This document shows, one piece after another, positions 4,613 to 64,000 of a DNA stretch of 64,000 nucleotides (within the stretch, counting starts at the first letter, position 1; every line of letters begins with the position of its first letter). The position numbers and the translations under genes were made by a program. The stretch comes from Lichenostomus cassidix (taxonomy: Eukaryota > Chordata > Aves > Passeriformes > Meliphagidae): NCBI GenBank assembly GCA_008360975.2, contig VLJF02000033.1:3224001-3288000 (forward strand). Reading direction: 5' to 3'. Below the pieces are notes generated by a model. It saw only the letters and a list, made by a program, of their open reading frames with translations, was not told the origin of the DNA and did no database searches.

Positions 4613-4720
4613 CTGCAGGCCAATTGGCCCTGGAGCTCCATTGAATCCTCTCGTTCCTTCGTCTCCTTTCACCCCAAAATGTCCTTGAGCTCCTCGAGCT
4701 CCTGGCTCCCCGTCGGCGCC
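4613..4720 (-). CDS. COL11A2: COL11A2 helix exon ([10 protein letters not shown]...GPIGLQ), weak donor
   Basis: A 108-bp exon of 36 residues in 12 perfect Gly-X-Y triplets. It starts [16 protein letters not shown], continues [12 protein letters not shown] and ends APGPIGLQ. The [15 protein letters not shown] core matches COL11A2 and COL11A1 more closely than COL5A1, which as I recall has GLFG and GPRGFP here. The acceptor is CCCTCCCAG. The donor reads CTGCAG followed by GTCTGG, off consensus at +3, +4 and +6. Six truncated copies of its 5' edge lie just upstream in gene sense (4791-6788). Confidence 0.94.
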
Positions 4721-7700
4721 CTGGGAGGGGAAAAAACACCCAAAATTAGCCCAAAATCAGCCCAAAATCAGCCCAAATCCACCCTAAAATCCTGGCTCCC
4801 CATCGGCTCCCTGGGAGGGGAAAAAACAACCAAAATTAGCCCAAAATCAGCCCAAAATTAGCCCAAAATTAACCCAAAATCCTGGCTCCCCGTCGGCGCC
4901 CTGCGAGGGGAAAAATCACCCAAAATTAGCCCAAAATTAGCCCAAAATCATCCCAAATCCACCCTAAAATCCATCCCAAAATCATCCCAAAAAACCATTA
5001 AAATTCTACATAAAATAACCCCAAAATCACCCCAAAATCATCCAAAAATTATCCCAAAAATAACCCAAAATCACCCCAAAAATAACCCAAAATAGTCCCA
5101 AAATCATCCCAAAATCATCCCAAAATCATCCCAAAATCACCCCAAATCCACCCTAAAATCCTGGCTCTCCATCAGTGCCCTGGGAGGGGAAAAAACACCC
5201 AAAATTAGCCCAAAATAATCCCAAAATAATCCCAAAATCGACCTGAAATTATGCCAAAATCCACCCCAAAACCCCACAGAAATTCCATGTAAAATCACCC
5301 CAAAATCCCGCTGAAAATCACCCCAAAATCATCTGAAAATCAACAGAAAATCACCCAAAATTAACCCAAAATTAGCCCAAAATAATCCCAAATCCATCCC
5401 AAAGTCACCCCGAAATAACACAAAAATTCCATGTAAAATAACACCAAAATCCCACTGAAAATCACCCCAAAATCATCTGCAAATCAACAGAAAATAACCC
5501 CAAAATCATCCCAAAATCATCCCAAATCCACTCTAAAAAAAGAGAAAAAAAACTAATCAGAAAATCCTACACAAAATCATCCCAAAATCATCCCAAAATC
5601 ACCCCAAATCCACCCTAAAAAAAGAAACAAAAACCTAACCAGAAATTCCCCAAAATCTTGTAAAATCTGCCCAAAATCACCCCAAAATCCCACTGAAAAT
5701 CACCCCAAAATCATCTGAAAATCAACAGAAAATCATCCCAAAATCGCCCCAAAATCATCCCAAAATCATCCCAAAACTACCCCAAAATTCACTCTAAAAA
5801 AAGAGAAAAAAACTAATCAGAATTCCCCAAAATTAGCCCAAAGTCATCCCAAAATAACCCCAAATCCATCCCAAAATAACATAGAAATTCTATGTAAAAT
5901 AACCCCAAAATCCCACTGAAAATTGCCCCCAAATCATCTCAAAATCATCCCAAAATCATCCCCAAATTAACCCCAAATAACCCCAAAATCAGCCCAAAAT
6001 TCACCCTAAAAAAAGAAAAAAAACCTAACCAGAAATTCCCCAAAATCTCGTAAAATCTGCCCCAAAATCACCCACAGAAAATGACCCCAAAATCGCCCCA
6101 AAATCATCCCAAAATTCACTCTAAAAAAAGAGAAAAAAACTAACCAGAAATTCCCCAAAATCATCCCAAAATAGCCCTAAAATCATTCAAAAATCCTACA
6201 CAAAATCATCCCAAAATCATCCCAAATCCACCCTAAAATCCTGGCTCCCCATTGGCCCCCTGGGAGGGGAAAAAACACCCAAAATTAGCCCAAAATTAGC
6301 CCAAAATAATCCCAAAATCCACCCCAAAACCCCACAAAAATTCTATGTAAAATAACCCCAAAATCCCACTGGAAATCACCCCAAAATTGCCCCAAAATAA
6401 ACCCAAAATCACCCCAAATCCACCCTAGAAAAAGGAAAAAAACCCTAACCAGAAATTCCCCAAAATCATCCCCAAAATCATCCCAAAATAATCCCAAATC
6501 TATCCTAAAATCCTGCCTCTCCATCAGCGCCCTGGGAGGGGAAAAAACACCCAAAATTAGCCCAAAATTAGCCCAAAATTAGCCCCAAATCAGCCCAAAA
6601 TAATCCCAAATCCAGCCCAAAATCCAGCCTGAAATAACACAGAAATTCTACATAAAATAAATCCAAAATCACCCCAAAATCATCCAAAAATTATCCCAAA
6701 AATAACCCAAAATAGTCCCAAAATCATCCCAAAATCATCCCAAAATCACCCCAAATCCACCCTAAAATCCTGGCTCTCCATCAGTGCCCTGGGAGGGGAA
6801 AAAACACTCAAAATTATCCCAAAATAATCCCAAAATCGGCCTGAAATTATGCCAAAATCCACCCCAAAACCCCACAAAAATTCCATGTAAAATAATCCCA
6901 AAATCCCGCTGAAAATCACCCCAAAATCATCTGCAAATCAACAGAAAATCAACAGAAAATCACCCAAAATTAACCCAAAATTAGCCCAAAATAATCCCAA
7001 ATCCATCCCAAAGTCACCCTGAAATAACACAAAAATTCCATGTAAAATAATCCCAAAATCCCACTGAAAATCACCCCAAAATCATCTGCAAATCAACTGA
7101 AAATCAACAGAAAATCACCCAAAATTAACCCAAAATTAGCCCAAAATTAGCCCAAAATAATCCCAAAATCGACCTGAAATTATGCCAAAATCCACCCCAA
7201 AACCCCACAAAAATTCCATGTAAAATCACCCCAAAATCTCACTGAAAATCACCCCAAAATCATCTGAAAATCGACAGAAAATCAACAGAAAATCACCCAA
7301 AATTAACCCAAAATCTTCTCCAGAAAACCCAAAATTTCCTCCAAAATCCCCAAAATTTCTCGCCAAACCCCAAATTTTCCCTCCCAAATCCCCAAAATTT
7401 TGCCCCAAAATCCCAAAATTTCCCCCCAAAATCCCCGAATCTCCCTTCCAAACCCCAAACTACCCCCAAGCACCCAAATTTTCCCCCCAAAATCCCCAAA
7501 TTTCCCCCCAAATCCCCAAATTTCCTTCCCAAACCCCAAAATCCCAAAATTTTCTTCCAAATCCCAAGATCTCCTCCAGAAATCCCAAAATTTCCCCCAA
7601 AATCCCCAATTTTTTCCCCAAAATCCCAAAATCTCCTCCAGAAAACCCAAAATTTTTCCCAAAATCCTCAATCCTCCTTTTCCAAAATCCTCTCAAAATC

Positions 7701-8069
7701 CCCAAAATTTCCTCCCAAATTCCCCAAAATTTCCCTTCCAAATCCCAAAATCTCCACCAGTAACCCCAAAATTTTCAAACCCCCACCCTCTAAACTCCAA
7801 AATTTCCTCCCAAGTCCCAAAATCCTCCAGACTACCCCAAATTTTCCCAAAATTTTCCTAATTTTCAAAATTTCCAAAATCCCAATTTTCCTCTCAAAAT
7901 CCCCAAATCCTCAAACCCCCAAATTTCCCTCTAAACTCCCAATTTTTCCCAACCTCATCCAAAATTTCCCCAAAATTTCCCAAAATCTTTCAAATTTCCA
8001 AAAATTCCCCAAAATTCCAAAATCCCAAAATTTCCCCCCAAATTTCCCCAAATTTTGGGAATGACTCAC
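4721..8069 (-). repeat. intron, CCCAAAATCATCC / CCCAAAATTTCC minisatellites
   Basis: From 4721 to about 7310 it is CCCAAAATCATCCC-type repeat with longer units that recur (AAAATCAACAGAAAATCACCC, CTAAAAAAAGAGAAAAAAAC). From 7310 to 8069 it changes to CCCAAAATTTCCTCC units. The first part contains the captured exon edges listed separately. Confidence 0.85.
4791..6788 (-). repeat. six truncated copies of an exon 5' edge with acceptor (decoy 3' splice sites)
   Basis: Copies of the first ~20 bp of the GADGEPG exon, each followed on the plus strand by CTGGGAGGGG (CTGCGAGGGG in one), which is CCCCTCCCAG in gene sense. They lie at about 4791-4810, 4881-4900, 5160-5179, 6240-6259, 6512-6531 and 6769-6788. 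Each is preceded by the same ACCCTAAAAT-like intron sequence, so exon edge and intron were duplicated as one unit. The copies stop after about seven codons and lack the rest of the exon and a donor. Several carry substitutions (GCGCC to GCTCC or GTGCC). Confidence 0.9.
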
Positions 8070-62381: not shown

Positions 62382-62489
62382 GGCCACCCCGGGCTCATTG
62401 GGCTGATTGGACCTCCTGGGGAGCAAGGGGACAAAGGGGACAGAGGGAGACCTGGAATTCCCGGAAAAACCGGGAACAAGGGAGAGACG
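62382..62489 (+). CDS. COL11A2: COL11A2 helix exon ([13 protein letters not shown]...GNKGET)
   Basis: A 108-bp, phase-0 exon of 36 residues: [16 protein letters not shown], then [12 protein letters not shown], ending KTGNKGET, 12 perfect triplets. The acceptor is TTTTCCCCCCAG and the donor [26 protein letters not shown] is a hallmark of the type V/XI helix near its C-terminal end. Its last 63 bp plus donor are tandemly copied eight times downstream. Reading through the donor meets an in-frame TAG at 62550-62552. Confidence 0.95.
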
Positions 62490-64000
62490 GTGAGGAATTG
62501 GGGTGAAAATGTGGGATTTTGGGAAAAAATATGGGATTTGGGGAAAAAATAGCCAAAAAATGGGATTTGGGAGGAAAAAACTGCAAAAAAATGGGATTTT
62601 GGGGACAAAGGGGACAGAGGGAGACCTGGAATTCCCGGAAAAACCGGGAACAAGGGAGAGACGGTGAGGATTTGGGGTGAAAATATGGGATTTTGGGAAA
62701 AAACCCTAAAAAAATGGGATTTCGGGGAAAAAATCCGCAAAAAAATGGGATTTTGGGAGGAAAAACTGGGATTTTTGGGGACAAAGGGGACAGAGGGAGA
62801 CCTGGAATTCCCAGAAAAACTGGGAATAAGGGAGAGACAGTGAGGAATTGGGGAGAAAAAATGGGATTTTGGGAAAAAACCCTAAAAAAATGGGATTTTG
62901 GGGAAAAAATACCAAAAAAATCCGATTTTAGGAAGGAAAAAAGGGATTTTGGGGACAAAGGGGACAGAGGGAGATCTGGAATTCCCGGAAAAACCGGGAA
63001 CAAGGGAGAGACGGTGAGAAATTGGGGAGAAAAAGTGGGATTTTGGGAAAAAATATGGGATTTGGGGAAAAAACCCGAAAAAAATCGGATTTGGGAGGAA
63101 AAATCACCAAAAAAATGGGATTTTTGGGGACAAAGGGGACAGAGGGAGACCTGGAATTCCCGGAAAAACCGGGAATAAGGGAGAGACGGTGAGGAGTTGG
63201 CGAGAAAATATGGGATTTTGGGAAAAAACAAAAAAAATGGAATTTGGTGGGAAAAAATACCAAAAAATTGGGATTTTTGGGGAAAAAAATTGGGATTTTG
63301 GGGACAAAGGGGACAGAGGGAGACCTGGAATTCCGGGAAAAACTGGGAACAAGGGAGAGACGGTGAGGAGTTGGGGAGAAAAAACGGGATTTTGGGAAAA
63401 AATTGGGATTTTGGGGAAAAAACCTGAAAAAAATCGGATTTGGGAGGAAAAATCCCCCAAAAAATGGGATTTTGGGAGGAAAAATGGGATTTTTGGGGAC
63501 AAAGAGGACAGAGGGAGACCTGGAATTCCAGGAAAAACTGGGAACAAGGGAGAGACGGTGAGGATTTGGGGAGAAAAACTGGGATTTTGGGAAAAAAAGC
63601 CAAAAAAAATGGGATTTCGGGGAAAAAATCCGCAAAAAAATGGGGTTTTGGGAGGAAAAATGGGATTTTGGGGACAAAGGGGACAGAGGGAGACCTGGAA
63701 TTCCTGGAAAAACCGGGAATAAGGGAGAGACGGTGAGGAGTTGGGGTGAAAAAATGGGATTTTGGGAAAAAACCTAAAAAATGGGATTTTGGGGGGAAAA
63801 AATACCAAAAAAATCCGATTTTGGGAGGAAAAATCACCCAAAAAATGGGATTTTGGGGACAAAGAGGACAGAGGGAGACCTGGAATTCCTGGAAAAAAAC
63901 TGGGAATAAGGGAGAGACGGTGAGGAATTGGGGGGAAAATGTGGGATTTTGGGAAAAAAACCCTAAAAAAAAGGGATTTGGGGGGAAAAATACCAAAAAA
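62490..64000 (+). repeat. eight-unit array of an exon 3' half plus donor (decoy 5' splice sites)
   Basis: Copies of the last 63 bp of the exon 62382-62489 (encoding [20 protein letters not shown] and T) lie at 62601-62663, 62777-62839, 62951-63013, 63126-63188, 63300-63362, 63495-63557, 63670-63732 and 63855-63919. Start-to-start spacing is mostly 174-176 bp, with 195 and 185 late in the array. Each is followed by GTGAGG or GTGAGA, and each is preceded by TTTTGGGG, so none has an acceptor at the copy boundary. Divergence is low; one copy has ACA for ACG before the donor and the last has two extra bases in its A-run. The array runs to the window end. Confidence 0.95.

Follow-up and report, generated by a model that had tools for sequence, protein, structure and literature searches.

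Partial copies of exon edges that lie in the adjacent intron and retain a splice site have been described under two names. In chicken, exon stuttering has been reported in 236 introns of 115 genes, with 1–44 copies of edges that carry the donor or the acceptor site and with strong length variation; 190 of these 236 introns are located on dot chromosomes, and GC-rich surroundings are proposed as an association, not as part of the definition (Hron et al., 2026, PMC12954441). Earlier, in 2010, mirages were described in globin genes of amphioxus and cited for Adh3; haplotypes had 6 or 3 units, and reverse transcription PCR suggested normal splicing (PMC3087553); the same source cites Rogers and Zhuo et al. 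for intron gain by tandem duplication. Here we analyze a 64,000-nt stretch of the genome of the honeyeater Lichenostomus cassidix (the window, C67:3224001-3288000, in an assembly of 1.10 Gb and 514 contigs), where exon edges of a fibrillar collagen gene that we take to be COL11A2 recur in its introns. This locus is a new example of exon stuttering or mirages. Very probably, tandem duplications in the introns have crossed exon borders, so that the exon edge and its splice site were multiplied within the repeat.

In favor of this reading, the published cases have the same features (PMC12954441; PMC3087553). In chicken, too, the exon edge with its splice site is copied through the adjacent intron, the introns are highly repetitive, the coding exons are intact and the ohnologues are free of the pattern; the length alleles seen there have a probable counterpart in the two versions described below. 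The present case differs in the genome and genes involved (COL11A2 and RING1), in its AT-rich introns with strong GC skew, and in that two versions are compared unit by unit. Mirages likewise are minisatellite-like tandem duplications of exon-intron borders, many with AG or GT, at both 5' and 3' edges, with haplotypes that differ (6 vs. 3 units) and boundary units that escape homogenization; they are known, however, from few genes of a cephalochordate, and the section that presents them says nothing of introns that are repetitive throughout. In intron gain through internal tandem duplication, too, the duplications carry splice signals, whereas here the copies stay within existing introns. No new intron or exon was found: the copies lie inside existing introns and the Gly-X-Y exons keep frame. 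The view of an earlier note on this DNA, which knew of no named description of the pattern, is not supported in light of these two papers. In a literature search under the names "exon stuttering" and "sequence stuttering", the chicken paper was the sole result. What is added is the comparison of two versions, a form of the introns of which we found no description, and the extension of exon stuttering to another genome and to a collagen gene. Two versions of the 3' part of the gene are apparently present in the assembly, which allows turnover to be followed directly, unit by unit. Coordinates are window positions, negative numbers lying to the left of the window; version A is the left contig (-69440 to -451) and version B the contig 58545-107410.

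Captured exon edges in the window

Collagen exons were located as Gly-X-Y runs bounded by AG and GT. In total, 41 Gly-X-Y exon records from both versions were scanned, with 12-bp flanks, against their own contigs, with reversed exons as the null, and chosen edges were recounted with nhmmer. Beside six intact exons of the window, the introns contain 47 partial exon copies, each with AG or GT (6, 22, 6, 2, 3, and 8 per array; hand count of the nhmmer listing, live copies removed):

4613-4720, minus strand: E1, intact 108-nt collagen exon, source of acceptor-side pieces
4789-6800, minus strand: six acceptor-side copies (exon nt 1-21 and AG) upstream of E1
14858-14965, minus strand: E2, intact 108-nt exon, source of donor-side pieces
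11217-14692, minus strand: 22 donor-side copies (about exon nt 92-108 and GT) in units of 145-188 bp, downstream of E2
17010-17117, minus strand: E3, intact 108-nt exon
17632-19994, minus strand: six acceptor-side copies upstream of E3
24045-24152, minus strand: E4, intact 108-nt exon
24627-25061, minus strand: two acceptor-side copies upstream of E4 (exon nt 1-71 and 1-53)
29062-29169, plus strand: E5, presumed intact 108-nt non-collagenous exon (putative live copy)
27395-28520, plus strand: three acceptor-side copies upstream of E5
62382-62489, plus strand: E6, intact 108-nt exon of version B (version A counterpart at -19342 to -19235)
62601-63931, plus strand: eight of 15 donor-side copies (exon nt 46-108 and GT) in units of 174-195 bp, downstream of E6

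The scan confirmed the five arrays that the earlier note had placed beside Gly-X-Y exons, and nhmmer gave the sixth, beside 29062-29169; the more than 40 decoy splice sites that it had announced are borne out by the same 47 pieces. All counted pieces lie at the exon border, on the strand of the gene. The array said to span 62601-63919 is present and runs on past the window end to ~65186, with 15 pieces in all, the last of which is decayed.

The best scores of the reversed-exon null ranged from 0 to 48.8 bits over the 41 records. Compared to their own null, the pieces score 41-58 vs. 35 bits for exon 4613, 29.5-68 vs. 0 for 14858, 35-41 vs. 29.5 for 17010 (where the scan detected four of the six pieces), 87-131 vs. 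43 for 24045, and 95-139 vs. 22 for 62382. The scan count excludes likeness among different intact exons (at most 46.8 bits), scattered single matches of ~29-39 bits and weak opposite-strand matches (29.5-33.4 bits); six weak or cross-exon rows were excluded from the nhmmer count.

In line with the earlier note, neither the scan nor the nhmmer recount yielded a complete exon copy among the pieces; nevertheless, 14 of the 22 pieces at 11217-14692 have AG directly before the 16-nt remnant (hand count) and in this respect resemble micro-exons with both signals. At 16 nt, the remnant is probably too small to be recognized by ordinary exon definition. The Gly-X-Y exons keep frame, although the Gly-X-Y phase claimed for every live exon does not extend to E5, which is not a Gly-X-Y exon, is outside the scan of 41 records and was chosen by its position and donor site. 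By eye, the 3' half of E5 looks like intron repeat, and this exon end may stem from the array.

Two versions of the 3' part of the gene

Runs of N at 1-49 (reaching back to -450), 26205-26704 and 58045-58544 divide the window into three contigs. With strands read from the sequence and a presumed order along the protein, contig 50-26204 carries the middle of the gene (minus strand), contig 26705-58044 its 5' part (plus strand) and contig 58545-107410, which runs past the window, its 3' part (plus strand). The left contig, outside the window, has the same 3' exons as the third contig, on the minus strand.

26205-26704, no strand: 500-N gap, with conflicting gene orientation on its two sides
58045-58544, no strand: 500-N gap, with the second version (B) of the 3' part of the gene to its right

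Given that contigs of conflicting orientation are misjoined across these gaps and the 3' exons are present twice, the single continuous gene of the earlier note does not stand, and its 27 exons were not recovered either (22 Gly-X-Y exons and exon 29062-29169 are listed in the window). Some 25 helix exons would be expected between the 5' and middle contigs; none was seen in the window or its flanks, where no dedicated search was made. The locus cautions that stretches of such intron repeats are prone to misassembly.

Versions A and B most likely represent two haplotypes, with B as a second haplotype retained in the scaffold. Over six pairs of exons, 357 of 360 bases are identical; the three differences are adjacent, in one Ser/Val codon within 60177-60230 vs. 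-17866 to -17813. The left contig overlaps the first by ~2 kb, with 1894 of 1941 aligned bases matching across 37 blocks; three more exons in this stretch are identical over 162 of 162 bases. The scaffold places both versions, inverted, and their introns are strongly diverged, as would be expected of true inverted paralogues. This alternative, that is, an inverted gene duplication, appears quite unlikely considering the near identity of the coding sequence, the inverted collinearity of B with the left contig, which extends from 59466 to the last base of B (vs. -16122 to -59347; 4937 shared unique 24-mers inverted and 132 in the same sense), the almost complete lack of shared sequence in the contig after B (only 25 and 21 shared unique 24-mers) and the single COL11A2 that a survey of bird MHC genes reports for the passerines studied (PMC8893315). 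The Ser/Val codon, the sole difference among the nine pairs, aligns as two compensating one-base indels and could be a variant or a consensus error.

All five introns compared between the putative haplotypes differ in length, four by more than 10% (B/A: 634/1614, 2151/1368, 4670/1300, 2089/1420, and 2294/2518), as far as one assembly with its two versions can show; where the left contig overlaps the first, two short introns have almost the same length (672/671 and 198/195). Outside the window, two further edges of the collagen gene and three of the neighboring gene, presumably RING1, are captured:

69303-69338: E7, donor-side, one piece in each version
76489-76595: E8, C-propeptide exon, acceptor-side, six pieces in B (one without AG) and 10 in A
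89741-92783 and 93586-95740: RING1-like exons with captured edges

One RING1 exon is captured on both sides, with acceptor pieces upstream (11 in B, four in A) and donor pieces downstream (seven in B, six in A), and another has acceptor pieces upstream (14 in B, 12 in A). With the 15 donor pieces of E6 in B and a single one in A, copy number differs between the versions at five of the six edges compared (hand counts from listings, live copies removed). The C-propeptide and RING1 edges were picked because their translations drew attention and represent a subset of the exons there.

Comparison with paralogous genes

Two paralogous collagen genes of the same assembly, on C19 (31 exons found) and C11 (18 exons found), served as a control, 30 kb each. 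With the settings of the published screen (blastn-short matches of at least 20 nt and at least 42.1 bits), captured edges were found at 0 of 62 and 0 of 36 exon-intron sides, respectively, i.e., stuttering is absent from both paralogues (0 of 98 sides), which are presumably ohnologues. Tandem-repeat cover, calculated with Tandem Repeats Finder (TRF), is 0.051 and 0.007 in C19 and C11 vs. 0.875-0.955, exons included, in the four stretches of the gene studied here. Of the published traits of stuttering, this locus shows heavy repeat cover of the intron and, at six window exons, partial exon-edge copies that include the border in the adjacent intron.

The clean paralogues also bear on the possibility that the arrays are an artefact of assembling long reads in repeats. 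In favor of it, contigs of opposing orientation are joined in the scaffold, which contains the 3' part in two versions. However, the captured edges at E6, E7, E8, and RING1 are present on two separate contigs, with copy numbers that differ at five of six edges, and the pieces are diverged rather than identical (exon-part diversity of 0.057 at E6 and 0.14 at E2). We consider this explanation, as the sole cause, extremely improbable.

Turnover and origin of the arrays

We propose that local tandem duplications in these very unstable introns occasionally cross an exon-intron border; the exon edge with its splice site would thereby join the repeat unit, and slippage or unequal exchange would presumably multiply them. 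Selection would remove whole-exon copies, since their inclusion by splicing would make the helix longer, whereas decoys would be tolerated because a truncated piece that lacks the opposite splice site could not be defined as an exon. The pieces are as expected of tandem duplications that begin in the intron and end inside the exon, as the earlier note had suggested, and copy number differs between the two versions (15 vs. 1 in one array). Its placement rule, acceptor pieces upstream and donor pieces downstream, holds as well but is no separate evidence given that duplications from intron into exon must produce it. This geometry does not, in turn, dictate that whole-exon copies be lacking. As for selection on the intact copy, which the note had also invoked, the phase of collagen exons makes whole-exon gain a clear test. 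The chance that only one edge is included at all 11 captured edges comes to a crude product of 0.0005, with present median unit lengths typed from listings and uniform placement assumed, and this is compatible with whole-exon copies being removed.

The E6 units align well and allow turnover to be followed. The most distal units of A and B have in common a stretch of ~35 nt that sets them apart from the rest of the units. This hints at a single old capture that preceded the divergence in copy number, and both arrays may derive from one old boundary unit. The intron flank of the live E6 unit of A is closest to internal B unit 11 (0.964), not to the live unit of B, which itself is closest to B unit 3 (0.892). 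The intron flank of the live edge thus seems to join in the exchange with the array, as far as these alignments suggest. Divergence is lower in the exon part than in the intron part (0.057 vs. 0.137 at E6 and 0.14 vs. 0.20 at E2), for which conversion with the live exon, the quality of the alignment, and constraint are possible reasons. In E6, mean identity hardly changes with the distance between units (0.87-0.90 at distances of 1-14 and 0.81 at 15), hence no clear higher-order repeat. A fixed, nucleosome-sized unit was considered and rejected: units of ~175 bp at E6 and ~166 bp at E2 would fit, but the spacings of other arrays range from ~90 to 1,683 bp.

Several points weigh against multiplication of captured edges by tandem duplication. 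The whole-exon calculation relies on present, partly incomplete unit lengths and is dominated by E7 (69303), which alone contributes 0.04. Over the whole intron part, the distal units are not mutual nearest neighbors (A01 is nearest to B11, 0.83, and B15 to A00, 0.82), so that the case for a shared boundary unit comes down to one short stretch. The published cut-off is passed at only 3 of 22, 1 of 12, 1 of 32, and 0 of 12 sides of the four stretches, that is, at five of 78 (E1, E2, E4, E6, and E6 in version A), with E3 and E7 below it and E5 outside the screen; given that arrays are present there, the cut-off of 42.1 bits misses some of them. The introns are AT-rich (0.31-0.44 GC over 24 introns, five counted in both versions; exons, 0.656 GC), whereas the published association is with GC-rich sequence. 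Finally, microhomology at the breakpoints is not enriched at nine ends of seven arrays. This last result bears equally on another origin of the pieces, seeding by short matches between exon and intron repeat through microhomology-mediated template switching. Longer matches do occur at some ends (k = 7 at E5, 6 at one end of E4, and 6 at E7), but k spans 2-7, and the fraction of positions within the respective exon that do equally well or better lies between 0.05 and 1.0, with the E5 exon start set one base early and E2 tested at two alternative positions. Seeding of this kind is therefore unlikely.

Strand bias and periodicity of the introns

Over the same 24 introns, the absolute GC skew is at least 0.4 in 19, with a maximum of 0.95. 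The sign of the skew varies among introns; A and B agree in sign at each of the five shared introns, one of which has near-zero skew in both versions (0.09 and 0.11). Self-match peaks at lags of 10-11, 21, and 32-33, and G-quadruplex motifs cover 0.196 of the introns vs. 0.084 in first-order Markov shuffles. In the two paralogues, the median absolute skew is 0.09 and 0.03, self-match shows no increase at lags of 10, 11, and 21, and the motifs cover 0.009 and 0.001 of the whole 30 kb. Our literature search found no paper that describes this skewed, AT-rich intron form, and the term "GC skew" had no occurrence in PMC12954441 in that search. Introns that are AT-rich and strand-biased and have a 10-11 bp period argue against the idea that stuttering requires GC richness; G runs at fixed spacing are an alternative hypothesis.

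Taken further, a repeat selected for its form could itself drive the expansion: G runs that alternate with A/T at a spacing close to the pitch of the helix, largely confined to one strand per intron (a strand fixed for each intron in both versions and varying among introns), and capable of forming four-stranded G structures even though GC is low. The live edge would then be the terminal unit of the array, decoys and live edge would interconvert, and the array would mutate the exon end. This is possible but on the unlikely side. Motif cover does not follow the captures: compared to shuffled sequence, it is 0.04 vs. 0.05 in the array intron at 4613, 0.09 vs. 0.04 at 14858, 0.10 vs. 0.02 at 17010, and 0.17 vs. 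0.08 at 62382 (B).

Splice sites and the fate of decoys

The weight matrices derive from 31 live exons of the gene; live sites were scored leave-one-out and decoys with the full matrix, which slightly favors the decoys. Scoring of live vs. decoy sites, as the earlier note had advised, shows that 41 of the 55 decoys scored (pieces of exon 76489 and RING1 left out) reach or exceed the live median. Among donors these are 20 of 22 at 14858, 12 of 15 at 62382, and 1 of 1 at 69303, and among acceptors, 6 of 6 at 4613, 1 of 6 at 17010, 0 of 2 at 24045, and 1 of 3 at 29062. If used in place of the live site, every decoy (55 of 55) would place an in-frame stop in the extended exon. Such strong local sites that must stay unused suggest exon definition, which would spare decoys because a truncated piece has no opposite site. 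The live donor of 4613 (minus strand) reads GTCTGG, unlike the other 30 listed live donors.

The same scores and stops, together with the lower divergence of the exon part (E6, 0.057 vs. 0.137; E2, 0.14 vs. 0.20), would also be expected if the decoys were functional, competing for the spliceosome and tuning COL11A2 output through non-productive transcripts. We find this very unlikely: one version has a single copy where the other has 15, the lower exon-part divergence may come from better alignment or from conversion with the live exon, and substitutions by codon position in the E6 and RING1 pieces show no clear coding constraint. In 13 of the 15 E6 pieces (two gapped or decayed pieces left out), substitution occurrences are 4/5/22 by codon position, which reduce to 11 distinct changes (2/3/6), four of them CpG transitions; in 10 of the 14 RING1 pieces, distinct substitutions are 7/1/5. 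Codon-position bias as a sign of coding use is accordingly not decisive.

Identity and neighborhood of the gene

We tentatively assign the collagen gene to COL11A2 on the basis of its collagen sequence, two matches of exon 4613-4720 elsewhere at 78% identity, the linkage to a neighbor with RING and RAWUL domains, and the literature. The neighbor is presumably RING1. Chicken chromosome 16 is described as a dot chromosome (PMC9974502). Together with the linkage to the RING1-like gene, this suggests that scaffold C67 may be located on a dot chromosome. Beyond the window, at 107911-124000, there are open frames that look retroviral by eye.

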